From a virus, in IMG/VR virus record IMGVR_UViG_3300038714_000176, positions 1 through 32,062 of that record: a DNA stretch of 32,062 nucleotides; one strand, 5' to 3'. Made by a program: the position numbers and the translations under genes. Below the pieces are notes generated by a model that saw only the letters and a program-made list of their open reading frames with translations, ran no database searches and was not told the origin of the DNA. How positions within the stretch are numbered: the first letter of the stretch is position 1; each line of letters opens with the position of its first letter. Below are positions 1,190 to 12,593 of this stretch, one piece after another.

Positions 1190-1591
1190 TTATTTTTTTA
1201 AAGCTTTATTTACGTCTTGAATAAACTTTTTATCTATTTTTTTCTTGTTTTCTTCAGTAGTGCCTATAAAGTTTCTTACATTAGTTCCTGAAACTGTTGG
1301 AAAGTCACCCTGATTGTGACCATAGCCGTACTTCTTTATAGTAAGAGTGCCTTTGCCACTTTTTAAGCTATTGTACATTTCTCCAGTATTAAAAAGAGCT
1401 TGCTCACCTGCACGATAAGAGGTTTTACCTAGCTTTAACCTTTTCCCATCCGTTCCAACACCTTTATCTATATTGTTTCGTGTACCTTTTACTGTATCTT
1501 TTGCATATCCACTTAGATAGTCATCAATTAGTTTAGGCATCTGTTTTGCAAGTTTATTAAAACTAAAAGTAGTTAATACCTTAATTTTCAT
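1190..1591 (-). CDS. Phage virion morphogenesis / tail completion protein (Mu gpG- or HK97 gp10-like)
   Basis: The 133-residue basic protein has the pattern of virion-morphogenesis and head-tail joining proteins: an N-terminal helical part, then LFNTGEMYNSL (66-76), a beta segment, and YGHNQGDFP (90-98) matching the usual hydrophobic-TG-L-S and aromatic-HxxG signature. Proteins of this type join or stabilise the head-tail interface. The gene follows the portal gene with an 11-base overlap on the - strand, so the two are co-translated. The assignment rests on recalled family pattern, not on a search; gp10-type and gpG-type families cannot be separated by eye. Confidence 0.6.
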   Translation of the reverse strand: MKIKVLTTFSFNKLAKQMPKLIDDYLSGYAKDTVKGTRNNIDKGVGTDGKRLKLGKTSYRAGEQALFNTGEMYNSLKSGKGTLTIKKYGYGHNQGDFPTVSGTNVRNFIGTTEENKKKIDKKFIQDVNKALKK

Positions 1592-2861
1592 TCGCTTGCT
1601 TTGGATTTTCTATATCATTTACAGATTTGTTTTCATCAATAATAACTTGTGCTTGGTCAACTGTGAGGTCTTTATTATCACGAACCATTATTTTTGCCCT
1701 AGTAGTTAGGTTGTTTTGAATATCAAACTGATCTTTTAATATCTGATCCTGTACTGTTTTAGGATAATCAATTTCTTCAAAGTCCACTCCAAACTGTTCT
1801 GGAAGTTCAATACCATTGTATCCTGCTATCACACGCTCAACATTGTAAAAATCCTGTTCATACATTCTCCAAAGAGCAATATCATCGTAGTAATCTTCTT
1901 TTCTCTCCATATCCTTAATCATTAGTGATATTCCACTAGGAACTTCACCACCAGACTCAGCAAACTGTATCCACAAGTGATTATTAATAGCTACAAGCTC
2001 CATTTGAAACTTTATATTCTCTATGGCTTCCATAATATTGCCTGATGGACTTGTTATATTGTAAGCACCATCTTCACCCATGTCTAAGATTGTATTGGAG
2101 CCTGCTCTTAGCATACTTTGGTCTGCTCTGAGTCCTGTAACCCACGGCTGACCAAACATATTAAACCTCATACCTAAGTTCATTTCAGTAAGAGCTATAT
2201 TTACCTGCTCATTGCAGTTTACAATATCAGAGGCACCTTCAACAAAAAAAGAGTCTATCTGATCTTCCCTGTGGGTAAAGACAAAAGGAATAATGCCGTA
2301 AGGGTTAGGTATTTCACTTAACATCTTACCTTCTTCATCCATTAGTCCATATTTTTCATTATCCCAGTACTCCCATTGCATATTATCTGTGTTGGATAGG
2401 TCTGCTGTGTTATTTAGCAATGGGTATACTATAGAACTAGGCACAAATGGGTCATCATCAAAGTAAACCTCAAAATAATAGATAGGTCTATAGTCAAAGT
2501 AGCCATCTTTCCAATGAACTCTGTTAGCAACAGTACCTAAGAGTCTAGTCATTCTTTCTGAGTGCTTCATACGAACATTTTTAGTTGGTATCAACTGCTC
2601 ATAGCGTTCTGTAGCATCACCTACGTTTCTTTTTGCTCCTAAACTATAGATACGGCTTATCTTGTTGATAAATTTTCTTGTAAAGTTGGTTACACTTGGT
2701 GGTATCTCCCTAAAAGCATCTCCATTAAAGTAGTTGGTTATATATTGCTCTACTGAAACTCCAGAATAGTAGTCTAAATGTTTTCTTATCTCATTTCTCC
2801 TAGCATGGGAAATCATTAGCTTTGTTTCTAGTAACTTATCTTTTAATACTCTTTGAATCAT
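1581..2861 (-). CDS. Portal protein
   Basis: The 426-residue protein lies directly downstream of large terminase, with an ATGA overlap (2858-2861), the classical terminase-portal order. It fits siphophage portals: an N-terminal segment with HLDYYSG (28-34) and YFNGDAF, a central beta-rich wing, the turn IPNPYGIIPFVFTHRE typical of portal wings, then a helical stem/crown region (IVNCNEQVNIALTEMNLGMR onward) and an acidic C-terminus. It would form the dodecameric ring at one capsid vertex through which DNA is packaged and ejected and on which connector proteins dock. It is somewhat short compared with many portals. It is encoded opposite to the capsid gene, which is unusual. Confidence 0.85.
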   Translation of the reverse strand: MIQRVLKDKLLETKLMISHARRNEIRKHLDYYSGVSVEQYITNYFNGDAFREIPPSVTNFTRKFINKISRIYSLGAKRNVGDATERYEQLIPTKNVRMKHSERMTRLLGTVANRVHWKDGYFDYRPIYYFEVYFDDDPFVPSSIVYPLLNNTADLSNTDNMQWEYWDNEKYGLMDEEGKMLSEIPNPYGIIPFVFTHREDQIDSFFVEGASDIVNCNEQVNIALTEMNLGMRFNMFGQPWVTGLRADQSMLRAGSNTILDMGEDGAYNITSPSGNIMEAIENIKFQMELVAINNHLWIQFAESGGEVPSGISLMIKDMERKEDYYDDIALWRMYEQDFYNVERVIAGYNGIELPEQFGVDFEEIDYPKTVQDQILKDQFDIQNNLTTRAKIMVRDNKDLTVDQAQVIIDENKSVNDIENPKQANEN

Positions 2862-4171
2862 CTTTGAATCCTCTTCATTTCGTTATTCCTCATAGGAAAC
2901 CTATTAGTTATAAAATACCTAAAAGCATCATTTCCGTGGTCATGGGTACCATCTTTTAATGGCTCTTCTTTTATTGGCTTCCCATCTTCACTTTCAGGGT
3001 ATCTGTATTCCTCAAAATCTTCTATTAATTCTGTACATTTTGTGTCTACATGAACTCTCCTTATTCCATCTGCACTTTCAAAAAAACCTCTTGCGTATGC
3101 TATACTAGCAACAAGATTTCTACTCATCCTATCTCTTGCTGATATAATTCTTATTCCACTACGTCTAAATATCTCCATATCTCCAGCACCACTCTGACCT
3201 TGAACATTACTACCAGCAGGGTCACCATAAAAAGACATGACAGGATAACCTTTGGTTTTAATCATCTTTATTAAATCTTCTGTTTTTATATTTTGTTTAT
3301 GCAGTATGGAGTCAAATACACGAATATGCTCTAGTTCTCCATCCCAATATGTTTGTAAAAACAAAACTGCTGGCATACGATAGCCAAAATCAATAGAGCA
3401 GTATGTAGGCAAGTTAGGATCGTATGGAAAGTCTCCAGTATCTAAGTCTCTGTTAAAATCCCAAACCTTACCCTCAAACACAGAAAATTCTGCTCCGAAC
3501 TCTTGTCCAAAAAGTTCTTTAGACATATTTCTTTTTCTTTCTATAATAGCAGGGTCATTTAATCCTAATGGAAACTCGTGTTCATTTACCCATGATGGAG
3601 ATGTATGACTTTCCCACATTGGATCATCTGCTCCTAGTTTAAACAAATCATATATCCAGTTTCTACCCTCTGGTGTTGTTATGAATATAACTTTACCTTT
3701 CCTACCTGCAACTGTTGGAGATAAATACATATCCCAAATTTTCTTATTCATCTTGGCAACCTCATCAATTACCAAGAGGTCTAAACCTTCACCAACAAGA
3801 CTTGATGGGTTATCTGCTGACATTCCTTCTACGATTGTACCCCATTTAAAACGAATGTACATATCTTTTTCTGATGCCTTGTCTACATCATCTGCATGAC
3901 CAACAACCATACGTTGCCAAATTTCACGAAATATCAACCTAGCTTTTTTGTATGACATCCCTACCACCCAAATTCTTTTGTTTGGCTGAGATGCTACATA
4001 AGTAGCTTCCATTGCACTTGCCCAAGTCTTACCAAATCTCCTACCACATACCACCACTTGAAATCTAGCATCTTGTTTTTTAGGGTAATGCAAAGGCATT
4101 TGACCACTATGAGGTTTATATCCTAAGTAGTCAAACCATTTTTTCTTAAATTCGTAATTTTTTTCTTGCAT
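2858..4171 (-). CDS. terL: Terminase large subunit
   Basis: The 437-residue packaging motor has both expected domains. ATPase: Walker A-like GRRFGKT (43-49), Walker B LLVIDE (132-137) with catalytic Glu137, and the coupling motif FITTPEGR (163-170). RNase H-like nuclease: acidic residues Asp261 (SIDFGYR), Asp317 (FYGDPAG) and Asp415 (HDHGNDAFRY). It translocates DNA into the prohead through the portal and cuts the concatemer. It is the first gene of the leftward unit; its promoter is likely the TGCTATAAT at about 4198-4190. All key residues appear present. The small subunit is encoded 2 kb away on the other strand. Confidence 0.95.
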   Translation of the reverse strand: MQEKNYEFKKKWFDYLGYKPHSGQMPLHYPKKQDARFQVVVCGRRFGKTWASAMEATYVASQPNKRIWVVGMSYKKARLIFREIWQRMVVGHADDVDKASEKDMYIRFKWGTIVEGMSADNPSSLVGEGLDLLVIDEVAKMNKKIWDMYLSPTVAGRKGKVIFITTPEGRNWIYDLFKLGADDPMWESHTSPSWVNEHEFPLGLNDPAIIERKRNMSKELFGQEFGAEFSVFEGKVWDFNRDLDTGDFPYDPNLPTYCSIDFGYRMPAVLFLQTYWDGELEHIRVFDSILHKQNIKTEDLIKMIKTKGYPVMSFYGDPAGSNVQGQSGAGDMEIFRRSGIRIISARDRMSRNLVASIAYARGFFESADGIRRVHVDTKCTELIEDFEEYRYPESEDGKPIKEEPLKDGTHDHGNDAFRYFITNRFPMRNNEMKRIQR

Positions 4172-4766: not shown

Positions 4767-5681
4767 ATGTCTAAACATTATCAAGGTTCAGCTAGTACAG
4801 TAGATGTAACAGATAGTACTGGAAGTGAACAATATTTTATTCCTCAGATTTGGTCTGATGGAATATATAAGTTTTTTGAACGTAAAACAGTATTCAGAGG
4901 ATTAGTTGATGACTACTCAGCATTAGTGCAGGGTAAAGGCTATGGTGATATAGTTCATATTCCAGAAATGGCTCTTATTTCAGCTAGTGCAAAAGGTGCA
5001 GGTGCTGATGTAAGTTATGATGCTACTGCAACAACTGAAACTCAGCTAGCTCTTAATAAACATAAATATGTCGCTAAACTTTTTGAAGATGTGGCTTTAA
5101 TTCAATCAGAAGCTGATTTAGTAGAAAAGTACGCTAGAATGATGGGTGAGGCTCTTGCTCGTCAGGTAGATGCTGATATATGGGCAGAGTTAGATGGTCT
5201 TAATCAGTCTCAAGCTTTATCTGCTGATGATACTTTAACAGCAGGTGTATTTGAATCTGCTCTAGCAACATTAGGTGAAAATGATGTACCTTACATGGAT
5301 GGAGAGTGTGCAATGGTTGTTAATCCAACTTTATTTGCAGACATTCTCAATCCTTCTGCTGGTATTGCTCAGTATTTCATCAGAAATGATGCTGTTGGAG
5401 AAGGAAATCGTGGTTTAAGGTCTGGAATGGTTGGCTCACTTTATGGAATTGATGTTTATATGTCAAACACAGTTTCTACAGGTGGTACAGCTAGTACAAT
5501 TCCGGGTGCTATATTCCATAAGTCAGCGTGTGCTTTTGCATCACAGCAGGAAGTTAGAGTTCAATCAGAGTATTCGATTGATGCTTTAGGAACTAAAGTA
5601 GTTTCTGACTTGCTTTATGGAGCAAAGTTGATTGATGATTCTGATAACATCAAAGGTGTAAAGTTTACTAACGTAAGCTAA
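4767..5681 (+). CDS. Major capsid protein (HK97 fold)
   Basis: The 304-residue protein follows the scaffold gene. It has the order expected of an HK97-fold coat of the P22/N4-like branch: an N-terminal arm (IPQIWSDGIYKFFERKTVFR), an E-loop region (KGYGDIVHIPEM, then repeated TTETQLALNKH), a spine helix containing SEADLVEKYARMMGEALARQ (about 118-140), and an A-domain-like C-terminus with MVVNPTLFADIL and GIDVYMSNTV. It forms the icosahedral shell. A strong hairpin directly follows the stop codon, probably to tune transcript level or stability relative to the next genes. Confidence 0.9.
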   Translation: MSKHYQGSASTVDVTDSTGSEQYFIPQIWSDGIYKFFERKTVFRGLVDDYSALVQGKGYGDIVHIPEMALISASAKGAGADVSYDATATTETQLALNKHKYVAKLFEDVALIQSEADLVEKYARMMGEALARQVDADIWAELDGLNQSQALSADDTLTAGVFESALATLGENDVPYMDGECAMVVNPTLFADILNPSAGIAQYFIRNDAVGEGNRGLRSGMVGSLYGIDVYMSNTVSTGGTASTIPGAIFHKSACAFASQQEVRVQSEYSIDALGTKVVSDLLYGAKLIDDSDNIKGVKFTNVS

Positions 5682-10438: not shown

Positions 10439-10620
10439 ACAAAGTAATTAAAACATTGAAGAACGGAGATTTTGAAGTTGTTAGTACGAGTTATGATATT
10501 CCTGTTAAGTATATTGACAGTACAAAGTTGTGGAAGTCAAGGTTGGATAGTCGCAAATATACCTCTCACACCACAGGATACAGTTATAAATACAGTTTTT
10601 ATCGAGATAGTGGATGCTGA
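10435..10620 (+). CDS. Hypothetical 61-aa protein overlapping a lipoprotein frame
   Basis: The frame starts at an ATG overlapping the previous stop (ATGA, 10435-10438). It encodes a basic, Ser/Tyr-rich protein (NGDFEVVSTSYDIPVKYIDS, then a C-terminal YSYKYSFYRDSGC). No signal peptide or membrane segment is seen. A second frame, 10472-10711, runs through most of it. The coupling overlap favours expression, but the protein itself is unremarkable, and it could be a non-functional open frame. Confidence 0.4.
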   Translation: MNKVIKTLKNGDFEVVSTSYDIPVKYIDSTKLWKSRLDSRKYTSHTTGYSYKYSFYRDSGC

Positions 10621-10711
10621 TTCTGTGGTTCATTGGTTTCATGGCAATATCAGCGATTATAGTAATTGGTGTTATAGGCATGAGCAACTGGAAGAAGTAA
10701 GGATTAAATGA
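10472..10711 (+). CDS. Putative lipoprotein, candidate outer-membrane spanin (TTG start)
   Basis: Read from TTG at 10472 (GGAG at 10465-10468), the 79-residue product starts MKLLVRVMIFLLSILTVQSC: positive charge, hydrophobic core and a lipobox-like VQS-C, so a lipidated cysteine at residue 20 is predicted. The mature part is about 60 residues and ends with a charged tail. The stop (10709-10711) overlaps the next ATG as ATGA. The next gene has one N-terminal membrane helix plus a coiled coil, so the two could be an o-spanin/i-spanin pair that fuses inner and outer membranes during lysis. The Gln at -2 of the lipobox is unusual, and the frame competes with 10435-10620 and 10614-10700. Confidence 0.5.
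   Translation: MKLLVRVMIFLLSILTVQSCGSQGWIVANIPLTPQDTVINTVFIEIVDADSVVHWFHGNISDYSNWCYRHEQLEEVRIK
10614..10700 (+). CDS. 28-aa single-helix membrane microprotein (overlapping frame)
   Basis: A third-frame ORF too short for routine calling. It encodes MLILWFIGFMAISAIIVIGV followed by IGMSNWKK: one continuous membrane helix with a positive end. Its ATG overlaps the stop region of the 61-residue frame (ATGCTGA), and it ends 7 bases before the next start. It is fully contained in the lipoprotein frame. A hydrophobic open frame this clean in a lysis block is suggestive, but it may be a by-product of the overlapping lipoprotein sequence. Confidence 0.35.
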   Translation: MLILWFIGFMAISAIIVIGVIGMSNWKK

Positions 10712-11046
10712 TGGGTGTGGCAGAAATAATTGAATTATATGGACAGCTAGGAGCAATGGGAATAATGACCATTGGGTTTTTATTCCTGCTTAACAATTTA
10801 GTCAGATCGCAGAAAGATCAATCAGAAGATTTAGATGTAATTAAACAAGATATATCAAAAATGCAAACAGAGATAAATTCCGTTTATTCAATATGTGTAA
10901 AATTAATTGACTCTATTAATGGTTTTAAAGGAAGTATTAATGATAAAATGGATCGTAGACATGAAGCTATGATGAAAGAATTAGATGATTTAAGTGATAA
11001 AATTAGTTATATGTCTGGAAGAATAAATGGTGGGGGTAAACATTAA
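10708..11046 (+). CDS. Membrane-anchored coiled-coil protein, candidate inner-membrane spanin or holin-associated protein
   Basis: The 112-residue protein has one hydrophobic segment near the N-terminus (residues 14-31, QLGAMGIMTIGFLFLLNN) and then a long charged helical region with heptads to about residue 105 (DVIKQDISKMQTEINSV and LDDLSDKISYMSGRI). A single N-terminal anchor plus coiled coil is the build of i-spanins and of XhlA-like proteins. It directly follows a putative lipoprotein gene and precedes a possible holin. The start is a double ATG; AAGGA lies 6-7 bases upstream. Confidence 0.6.
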   Translation: MMGVAEIIELYGQLGAMGIMTIGFLFLLNNLVRSQKDQSEDLDVIKQDISKMQTEINSVYSICVKLIDSINGFKGSINDKMDRRHEAMMKELDDLSDKISYMSGRINGGGKH

Positions 11047-11183
11047 TGGATAGTTTAAAAGTTGCTTCAATAAGCTTTGCAAATTATGGAGCTTATTTAG
11101 CTGAAATTAACTTACTATTACAATGTATCGTAGCAATAATGAGTATAATATACTTAGGAATAAAAATAAAAGGAAAAAAGTAA
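11046..11183 (+). CDS. 45-aa single-TM protein, possible holin
   Basis: The frame opens at an ATG overlapping the previous stop (TAATG, 11044-11048) and encodes 45 residues: a polar N-terminus (MDSLKVASISFANYGAYLAE), then a hydrophobic helix (INLLLQCIVAIMSIIYLGI) and a lysine-rich tail (KIKGKK). It was not called in the usual ORF length range. Tiny one-helix proteins with basic tails in lysis blocks can act as holins; I recall similar proteins in marine phages. Its stop overlaps the next start in the same TAATG manner. Confidence 0.6.
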   Translation: MDSLKVASISFANYGAYLAEINLLLQCIVAIMSIIYLGIKIKGKK

Positions 11184-11407
11184 TGGACATTAAATCAATG
11201 TTAGTAAAGGTTGCTGAAGAGCAAGCAGATAAAATGAAAGAACAAGCTGTAGGCTACACCCAATCAGAAGAGTTTGCAGGTAAAATGGCTCAGTTAATGA
11301 ATGATAAAATAAACATTCCATTTGTAAAAGAAGAGAAAGAAGGCGAACTATTTAAAGAGTTTGCTGAAGTAGTACAAGATTTAATTGCAGGTATATTTAA
11401 AAAGTAA
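11183..11407 (+). CDS. Hypothetical protein, 74 aa, amphipathic helical
   Basis: The ATG at 11183 overlaps the preceding stop (TAATG), and the product starts MDIKSMLVKVAEEQADKM; the longer frame from 11123 lies inside the upstream gene. The protein is helical and charged, with NDKINIPFVKEEKEGELF in the middle and a hydrophobic end (VVQDLIAGIFKK). A similar small protein is, from memory, common beside lysis genes of marine phages. Function unknown. Confidence 0.65.
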   Translation: MDIKSMLVKVAEEQADKMKEQAVGYTQSEEFAGKMAQLMNDKINIPFVKEEKEGELFKEFAEVVQDLIAGIFKK

Positions 11408-11697
11408 TGCCTAAGAAACGTGATCCAAGATTAGCTAGGTATGGACTAAAAGGGTACAATAAGCCGAAGCGTACTCCTAATCATCCTAAGAAATCTCATG
11501 TAGTTCTTGCAAAGGTTGGCAGTAAAGTCAAACTTATTAGGTTTGGTCAGCAAGGTGCTAAAACAGCAGGTAAACCTAAAAAAGGTGAATCTGCTAGAAT
11601 GAAAGCAAAACGTAGATCATTTAAAGCTAGGCATCGTAAGAACATAGCAAGAGGTAAAATGTCAGGCAGTTACTGGGCAAATAAGGTGAAGTGGTAA
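11407..11697 (+). CDS. Highly basic protein, 96 aa
   Basis: About a third of the residues are Lys or Arg, with almost no acidic residues. The conserved-looking core KVKLIRFGQQGAKTAGKPKK is followed by SFKARHRKNIARGKMSGSYW and ends WANKVKW. I recall this core from many uncultured marine phage and bacterial proteins of unknown function. It is the first of four consecutive basic proteins. A role in nucleic acid binding or condensation is suggested only by charge. It is joined to both neighbours by TAATG. Confidence 0.65.
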   Translation: MPKKRDPRLARYGLKGYNKPKRTPNHPKKSHVVLAKVGSKVKLIRFGQQGAKTAGKPKKGESARMKAKRRSFKARHRKNIARGKMSGSYWANKVKW

Positions 11698-11885
11698 TGC
11701 CTAGAAAAAAGAGACGAAAATCAACAGTAAATAAAGCAGGTAACTATACAAAACCTGCTATGAGAAAAAGACTTTTTTATAGAATTAAAGCAGGTAGCAA
11801 GGGCGGAAGAGCAGGGCAATGGTCTGCCAGAAAAGCTCAAATGCTTGCTAGGGCATATAAAAAAGCTGGAGGAGGTTATAGATAA
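11697..11885 (+). CDS. Highly basic protein, 62 aa
   Basis: The ATG at 11697 (TAATG overlap) is preferred to the in-frame ATG at 11691, which lies inside the previous gene. The product is very basic, beginning MPRKKRRKSTVNKAGNYTKP, and carries GGRAGQWSARKAQMLARAYK near the end, finishing AGGGYR. The QWSARKAQ...YKxxGGGY motif is recurrent in phage proteins of unknown function as far as I recall. Nucleic acid binding is an inference from composition. Confidence 0.65.
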   Translation: MPRKKRRKSTVNKAGNYTKPAMRKRLFYRIKAGSKGGRAGQWSARKAQMLARAYKKAGGGYR

Positions 11886-12130
11886 TGCCATTAAAGTCAC
11901 CTCAAAAGAGTTTAAAGAAATGGACAAAGCAAAAATGGGGATATGTAACTAAGAGTGATGCAAAAAAACCAAGAAGAAAAAGGGGGCGTTACCTACCTGA
12001 ATCAGTTAGGAAAAGTCTCAGTCCAAGCGAAAAGGCTTATACAAACAGGCAAAAGAGAAAAGCTTCTGCCAAAGGTAAGCAACGAGCAAAGTACAGTAAA
12101 AAAGTAGCAAAACGAGTAAGGAGATCATAA
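11885..12130 (+). CDS. Highly basic protein, 81 aa
   Basis: Counting residues gives 20 Lys and 11 Arg against 3 acidic residues. Motifs: SLKKWTKQKWGYVTKSD (9-25), GRYLPESVRKSLSPSEKAY (34-52), then an almost continuous basic tail. The middle motif recurs in small phage proteins, from memory. TAATG overlaps connect it to both neighbours. It could bind DNA or RNA, or act on membranes; nothing in the sequence decides. Confidence 0.6.
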   Translation: MPLKSPQKSLKKWTKQKWGYVTKSDAKKPRRKRGRYLPESVRKSLSPSEKAYTNRQKRKASAKGKQRAKYSKKVAKRVRRS

Positions 12131-12213
12131 TGCCAAAGGGAAAAGGATATGGCTTCGGAAAAGCAAAGCCAAAGAAAAAACGTAAGATGATAAAGAAGGG
12201 AAAGAAGAAGTAA
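12130..12213 (+). CDS. 27-aa lysine-rich microprotein
   Basis: The frame is exactly bounded by TAATG overlaps at both ends (12128-12132 and 12211-12215), the best evidence that it is translated. The product is MPKGKGYGFGKAKPKKKRKM plus IKKGKKK: 13 Lys and 1 Arg of 27 residues, a Gly/Lys N-terminus, and no acidic residue. It resembles a protamine-like or antimicrobial-like peptide in composition only. It immediately precedes the endolysin. Confidence 0.6.
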   Translation: MPKGKGYGFGKAKPKKKRKMIKKGKKK

Positions 12214-12593
12214 TGTATAAGTTCGGTAGACGGAGTCGAGAAAGACTCAAAGGGGTGGATGCTAGACTGGTAAATGTGTTAAATGAATTAATTAAAATGA
12301 TGGATGTTACTATTATTGAAGGACTCCGTTCTGCTGAACGTCAAGAAGAACTTTTAGCAAAGGGAGCTACTAAAGTAAAGTACTCTAAGCATATGGAAGG
12401 TAAGGCAGTTGATTTAGCACCATACCCAATAGACTGGGAAGATAGAGATGGCTTTTACTATATGGGTGGAATGATTCGTGGTATAGCTAAACAAATGGGA
12501 GTGGACATAAGATTTGGTGGAGACTGGGATAGCGATGGAAACACTAGAGATAATAATTTTGATGATTTAGTTCATATAGAGATAAAAAGTTAA
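12213..12593 (+). CDS. Endolysin, M15-family D-Ala-D-Ala / L-Ala-D-Glu peptidase
   Basis: The 126-residue enzyme cuts peptide cross-links of the host wall at lysis. The zinc ligands of the M15 (VanY-like) fold are visible: SKHMEGKAVDL supplies His60 and Asp67, and DLVHIEI supplies His121; EGLRSAERQEELLAKG (36-51) is the usual segment before them with Arg39 near the active site. No signal peptide is present, so export needs a holin. The length suits a single catalytic domain without a wall-binding domain. The start overlaps the previous stop as TAATG, at the end of the coupled lysis block. Confidence 0.85.
   Translation: MYKFGRRSRERLKGVDARLVNVLNELIKMMDVTIIEGLRSAERQEELLAKGATKVKYSKHMEGKAVDLAPYPIDWEDRDGFYYMGGMIRGIAKQMGVDIRFGGDWDSDGNTRDNNFDDLVHIEIKS

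Follow-up and report, generated by a model that had tools for sequence, protein, structure and literature searches.

Tlr6F (DUF5754) has been reported from Polinton-like viruses, virophages, giant viruses (Nucleocytoviricota) and some phages, and its function is not known (PMC4642659, PMC12220804). The phages have been referred to as 'some poorly characterized phages' (PMC4642659), and Tlr6F has been equated with the Pfam family PF19058 (PMC12220804). DUF5872 (PF19197) is listed for an algal virus (PMC12085832), and the PLV gene 'G', which is common to phycodnaviruses and bacteria (Yutin 2015), might be DUF5872. The component families discussed here are already recorded as uncharacterised. Here, we describe a marine phage locus in which a probable relative of Tlr6F/DUF5754 stands next to the two halves of a DUF5872-type protein, and which we read, tentatively and at a little under an even chance, as a late module of capsid- and DNA-associated proteins for particle building rather than cell lysis.

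The window, that is, the whole stretch of viral DNA analysed, comprises 32,062 bases (positions 1-32,062 of IMG/VR record IMGVR_UViG_3300038714_000176) and also codes for TerS, TerL, a major capsid protein, a tape measure protein and a primase-helicase. TerL and its neighbour in the portal position lie on the minus strand (1581-4171) and TerS (130-768) and the major capsid gene (4767-5681) on the plus strand, an arrangement that is unusual for packaging and head genes. The four basic genes and their context are as follows:

10708..11046, + strand: possible inner-membrane spanin of 112 aa (context), with one hydrophobic segment and a coiled-coil-like tail; phrog_739, Rz-like spanin, E 8e-4 among several weak matches
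11183..11407, + strand: acidic ORF of 74 aa, pI 4.8 (context), TAATG-coupled to ORF1
11407..11697, + strand: ORF1 (P0001), 96 aa, 32 K+R, 2 D+E, pI 12.0; phrog_7595
11697..11885, + strand: ORF2 (P0002), 62 aa, 21 K+R, 0 D+E; phrog_17747; N-terminal domain of a DUF5872-type protein as a separate gene
11885..12130, + strand: ORF3 (P0003), 81 aa, 31 K+R, 3 D+E; phrog_14910; C-terminal domain of a DUF5872-type protein as a separate gene
12130..12213, + strand: ORF4 (P0004), lineage-specific Lys-rich peptide of 27 aa, 14 K+R, 0 D+E
12213..12593, + strand: endolysin, M15-type peptidase (context); phrog_465 E 1e-38, Peptidase_M15 matches sub-threshold

An initial annotation had described four small ORFs of 96, 62, 81 and 27 aa with many basic and few acidic residues, joined by TAATG overlaps and leading into the endolysin, and all of this is present, including the 14 basic residues of the smallest protein. 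The K+R fractions of ORF1-4 (0.33, 0.34, 0.38 and 0.52) are the top four among the 42 tabulated window ORFs, with 0.25 as the next, and a TAATG start/stop overlap is found at each junction from 11183 through 12213. Compared with the relative L105 (approximately 0.5-1.7 synonymous changes per site), dN/dS is 0.04-0.15 for ORF1-4, so these are real genes. The same range covers both syntenic relatives, L105 and L106, for ORF1 (0.04-0.08), ORF2 (L105 only), ORF3 and ORF4 (0.09-0.14, few sites), and a comparison of ORF2 with the N-terminal half of the fused protein in L106 yields approximately 0.23. Purifying selection acts on all four ORFs. That the Lys-rich ORFs are a non-coding by-product of A-rich sequence is therefore hardly credible: ORF4 is short and of low complexity, as such an origin would predict, but the low dN/dS, the 14 residues that are invariant in ORF1 over 34 diverse relatives and the existence of hundreds of relatives speak against it, and for ORF1-3 it is already contradicted.

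Several further observations concern this stretch. Synonymous divergence between L105 and the window amounts to 33.5 of 49.5 sites in ORF3 (L105 1567-1815 versus window 11885-12130), 18 of 75.8 in the endolysin and 21.5 of 62.3 in ORF1, and the excess in ORF3 over the other two suggests that the cassette slot has been exchanged by recombination. The acidic 74-aa ORF is coupled directly ahead of the basic set, and a role as charge partner or chaperone is conceivable. A small ORF at 10472-10711 with the lipobox-like motif LTVQSCG lies just 5' of the spanin-like ORF, and the two are a possible o-spanin/i-spanin pair; a family search with the 10472-10711 ORF gave no match.

A DUF5872 profile built from 30 sequences of bacterial contigs only, searched against 812 ORFs of the window, matched ORF2 (profile positions 5-52, E 4.6e-15) and ORF3 (55-126, E 3.9e-12) and nothing else at a significant E value. 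Because 2000 shuffles each of ORF1-3 never exceeded 12.6 bits, against 51.8 for ORF2 and 42.4 for ORF3, an effect of composition is excluded for both matches. By homology, a single bacterial chromosomal protein, DUF5872, is here divided between ORF2 and ORF3. Both halves are held by a single ORF of 132 aa in Synechococcus phage S-CRES1 (gp97) and Pelagibacter phage Hodr (gp015), and an alignment made on the prediction of a fused protein retrieved 425 relatives in bacterial genome contigs, the best 80 of which match nearly end to end and are fused in every case. One contig of the bacterial set, L024, evidently comes from a phage that ended up in a bin; a terminase adjoins. At the Pfam cut-off for DUF5872 (27.5 bits) the window has no match and two fused phage forms reach 21.8-23.9 bits; one bacterial relative (L086) clears it at 28.1 and others fall just below. 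RefSeq names for the relatives are 'DUF5872 domain-containing' and 'Rho termination factor N-terminal domain-containing'.

Several full-length bacterial relatives carry a C-terminal Rho_N-like segment, just under the Pfam cut-off, and one a segment resembling a SAP domain; the phage forms are without the C-terminal Rho_N-like segment. Rho_N and SAP are nucleic-acid-binding modules. The distribution of DUF5872 in bacteria is sporadic, with 7 positive genomes among 398 sampled in the phylum to which L086 belongs, and it behaves as a stand-alone host gene, with no consistent conserved neighbours. Three contigs assigned to Pelagibacteraceae/MarineAlpha (L025-L027) have a fused DUF5872 protein of 131 aa, without the Rho_N-like segment, amid ordinary chromosomal genes, and one of them (L025) groups with phage forms in the second-domain tree.

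Among viruses, both the split and the fused state occur. DUF5872 is split in the window, in L104, in L105 and in most isolates, and fused in L106, S-CRES1 and Hodr. The order in L106 (ORF1, fused ORF2/3, ORF4, endolysin, a 395-aa protein) is that of the window with the halves joined. Fused ORF2-ORF3 proteins occur in 54 of the best-scoring 80 (of more) viral contigs with DUF5872. In a tree of the second domain, window ORF3 sits among fused relatives and the split label needs approximately 10 changes, at least 8 of them on well-supported branches, in an alignment that is short (82 columns) and has some long branches. The predicted model of the fused form places the split point between two helical parts. 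A programmed frameshift joining ORF2 to ORF3 was rejected as an explanation, because the halves are separated by other genes in HMO-2011, HTVC033P, HTVC103P and CRP-1. In HMO-2011 (L021 1465-2547) the intervening genes include one for methanesulfonate monooxygenase, so there the halves are separate proteins; the gap is an insertion site for metabolic genes.

The three families also travel together. ORF2 and ORF3 are both present in all 20 phage records with either one (HMO-2011 via separate matches), and ORF1, found in 48 annotated phage records, shares 10 of these 20, against approximately 0.02 expected by chance if relatedness is ignored. Among the best-scoring 80 environmental contigs with ORF1, 22 carry ORF2 and ORF3 as split genes, 11 carry them fused and 2 (L136 and L143) have an ORF3-ORF1 fusion with ORF2 adjacent, and among the best-scoring 80 with DUF5872, ORF1 lies within the flank in 37; both sets are the best of more, partly share contigs and are not independent samples. 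Dozens of contigs have ORF1, ORF2 and ORF3 close together on one strand. The idea that the families never co-occur in other phages is thus not borne out, with ORF1 accompanying the pair in 10 of 20 phage records and approximately half of the environmental contigs. The count of four families needs revision: ORF2 and ORF3 are halves of one, and ORF4 is lineage-specific, found only in three close relatives (L104-L106). Nor is this an anonymous set of polycations; many other phages encode members of the ORF1, ORF2 and ORF3 families.

ORF1 matches the profile of phrog_7595 over its full length (positions 2-96 of 96, E 6.2e-41), and divergent relatives used as queries located the same domain within larger proteins. 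In ICP1, gp125 (annotated as a capsid protease, phrog_9979, an annotation that is already known) combines Peptidase_S78_2 (PF14550) at 37-160 with phrog_7595 at 184-261 (E 6.5e-11), in the gene order portal-gp126-protease-scaffold-decoration-coat. In gene 100 of Aeromonas phage 2L372X (2L372X_100) the phrog_7595 domain (75-150, E 8.6e-11) precedes PF14550 (176-287), and the genes 3' of it lead to the major capsid protein. Hence, the domain stands on opposite sides of the S78_2 protease in the two phages and within a capsid gene cluster in both. The family also includes free-standing and cysteine-bearing variants, and ORF1 weakly matches part of phrog_220, 'minor head protein and DNA pilot'. 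Window ORF1 is itself free-standing and not fused to Peptidase_S78_2, and the gene that precedes the major capsid gene in the window was not recognised as a protease. Two annotation matters arose alongside: the ORF1 homologue of roseophage SIO1 (L006 4001-4213) lacks annotation in its record, and phrog_1530, labelled 'DNA methyltransferase', matches capsid-maturation proteases (L264 1943-2779, E 7e-60; L265 2258-3181, E 2e-68), so that this label looks misleading.

ORF1 is also probably related to DUF5754/Tlr6F of eukaryotic DNA viruses. PF19058 is matched by 17 of 34 ORF1 relatives, all sub-threshold, with a best E value of 0.0015; window ORF1 scores 9.8-11.2 bits and relatives scanned singly no more than approximately 16, short of the Pfam cut-off of 27.4. 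The matches are colinear but partial (model positions 5-32, 10-49 and 20-49). A six-frame search gave PF19058 matches in 9 records; in 8 of them ORF1 or its homologue was the sole match, and the ninth is without ORF1. ORF1 may be a distant relative of DUF5754/Tlr6F rather than a member.

Solved-structure searches by sequence and by fold gave nothing usable, with neither predicted model matched, and a search of NCBIfam found no relevant family. The models are moderate (ORF1 pLDDT 75.8, pTM 0.57; fused DUF5872 pLDDT 85.5, pTM 0.53) and the second fold search of fused DUF5872 covered 5 chains; hence, we make no claim of a new fold.

The extreme positive charge is best read as a trait added by the marine phage versions to conserved domains, since acidic residues in the first and second DUF5872 domains fall from 12.5% and 17.0% in bacteria to 4.2% and 6.8% in fused and 1.9% and 4.5% in split phage forms, and the ORF1 domain as found in ICP1 is near neutral (counted by eye).

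The initial annotation had offered three roles for the basic proteins, of which nucleic-acid binding is the best supported and damage to membranes or outer-membrane LPS at lysis is disfavoured. As lysis helpers, the polycations would act alongside the endolysin, and the window genes do lie between spanin/holin-like genes and the endolysin, outside the head cluster. Endolysins, where detected, are close: 17 of 18 lie within 1 kb of the basic-protein genes, and HTVC106P gp30 lies directly 3' of a peptidase M15A gene. However, an endolysin, for which detection was poor, was found in only 18 of the 160 related loci, against 31 with TerL. The sequences of ORF1-4, read by eye, have no visible transmembrane segment, signal peptide or lipobox, and the ICP1 and Aeromonas phage copies of the ORF1 domain lie within capsid operons. 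The relatives are a bacterial chromosomal protein, capsid proteases and probably Tlr6F from viruses of eukaryotes, for which there is neither peptidoglycan nor LPS to break. Given these relatives and endolysin adjacency in a subset of loci only, we consider a lysis function very unlikely.

Two further explanations share much of the evidence for a particle-building module. The proteins could be host-takeover factors that, late in infection, bind the nucleoid, ribosome or mRNA of the host and do not become part of the virion, a minority possibility: they are basic, soluble-looking and akin to a bacterial chromosomal protein, often with a Rho_N-like segment, that is a stand-alone host gene. Against this, the loci are consistently found in late modules, next to genes for packaging, head or lysis functions, and the ORF1 domain is fused to capsid-maturation proteases. 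Alternatively, and in our judgement improbably, they are protein-protein assembly factors, with ORF1 recruiting protease or scaffold in the prohead and charge being secondary. The invariant ORF1 residues, the protease fusions on either side and the roughly neutral ICP1 domain (eye count) would all fit, but neither the strong acid depletion of ORF2/3 nor the Rho_N-like segment in their bacterial relatives would be explained. Since the ICP1 domain appears neutral, the ancestral partner of the ORF1 domain may have been a scaffold or capsid protein and not DNA.

In the particle-building reading that we prefer, ORF1 is a small folded domain, protease-fused in some phages and free here, that most likely enters the prohead or docks onto it; its link to the capsid comes from the presence of the domain in the capsid proteases of ICP1 and an Aeromonas phage, both encoded in capsid gene clusters. 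The related loci also lie near major capsid, TerL, portal or endolysin genes, all on the same strand. ORF2 and ORF3 would be made as two polypeptides via translational coupling and, stripped of acidic residues, would most likely bind packaged or to-be-packaged DNA; nucleic-acid binding is suggested by this loss and by the bacterial relatives with Rho_N-like or SAP segments. ORF4 would be a lineage-specific charge-neutralising peptide that adds positive charge. The ORF3-ORF1 fusions suggest that the DUF5872 part is carried along with ORF1; no fusion of DUF5872 to a capsid protein was found in the phage collection. We infer the DNA binding, the prohead or virion location and this division of labour; expression would be late, judging from gene position only. 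The literature searched yielded no virion proteomics, mass spectrometry or binding data for these proteins. Several observations weigh against this reading: the window genes lie outside the head cluster, the ICP1 domain is approximately neutral (eye count), the Rho_N matches of the bacterial relatives fall just short of the Pfam cut-off in a segment that the phage proteins do not have, and neither predicted model resembled a solved fold. A wider version, which we put forward as doubtful speculation, is that Tlr6F has its phage form in the ORF1 domain, which acts in capsid assembly or maturation of both tailed phages and eukaryotic DNA viruses, that DUF5872 is its DNA-binding partner, present also in bacterial chromosomes and subject to repeated splitting and re-fusion, and that together they form a capsid-delivered DNA-organising module across two viral realms.

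In the part of the literature that was searched we found no description of the DUF5872 split, of the association of DUF5872 with ORF1 or of the ORF1 domain in capsid proteases, and within that scope neither the split nor the fusions nor the protease link seem to have been reported before. Tlr6F/DUF5754 and DUF5872 are conserved and uncharacterised in very different viruses; the capsid-protease link offers a first definite starting point, and which proteins to test together can be read from the split, fused and ORF3-ORF1 forms. Compared with known systems, ORF2 and ORF3 together align end to end with bacterial DUF5872 members, although the window version is split in two genes, depleted of acidic residues and without the Rho_N-like C-terminal segment. 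ORF1 is free and strongly basic, whereas its counterpart in ICP1 gp125 is fused to S78_2 and approximately charge-neutral (eye count). Small basic DNA-condensing virion proteins such as baculovirus P6.9 (PMC6163548) are likewise small, Arg/Lys-rich and viral; no sequence relation to them is known, and ORF1-3 are conserved folded domains rather than simple polycations.
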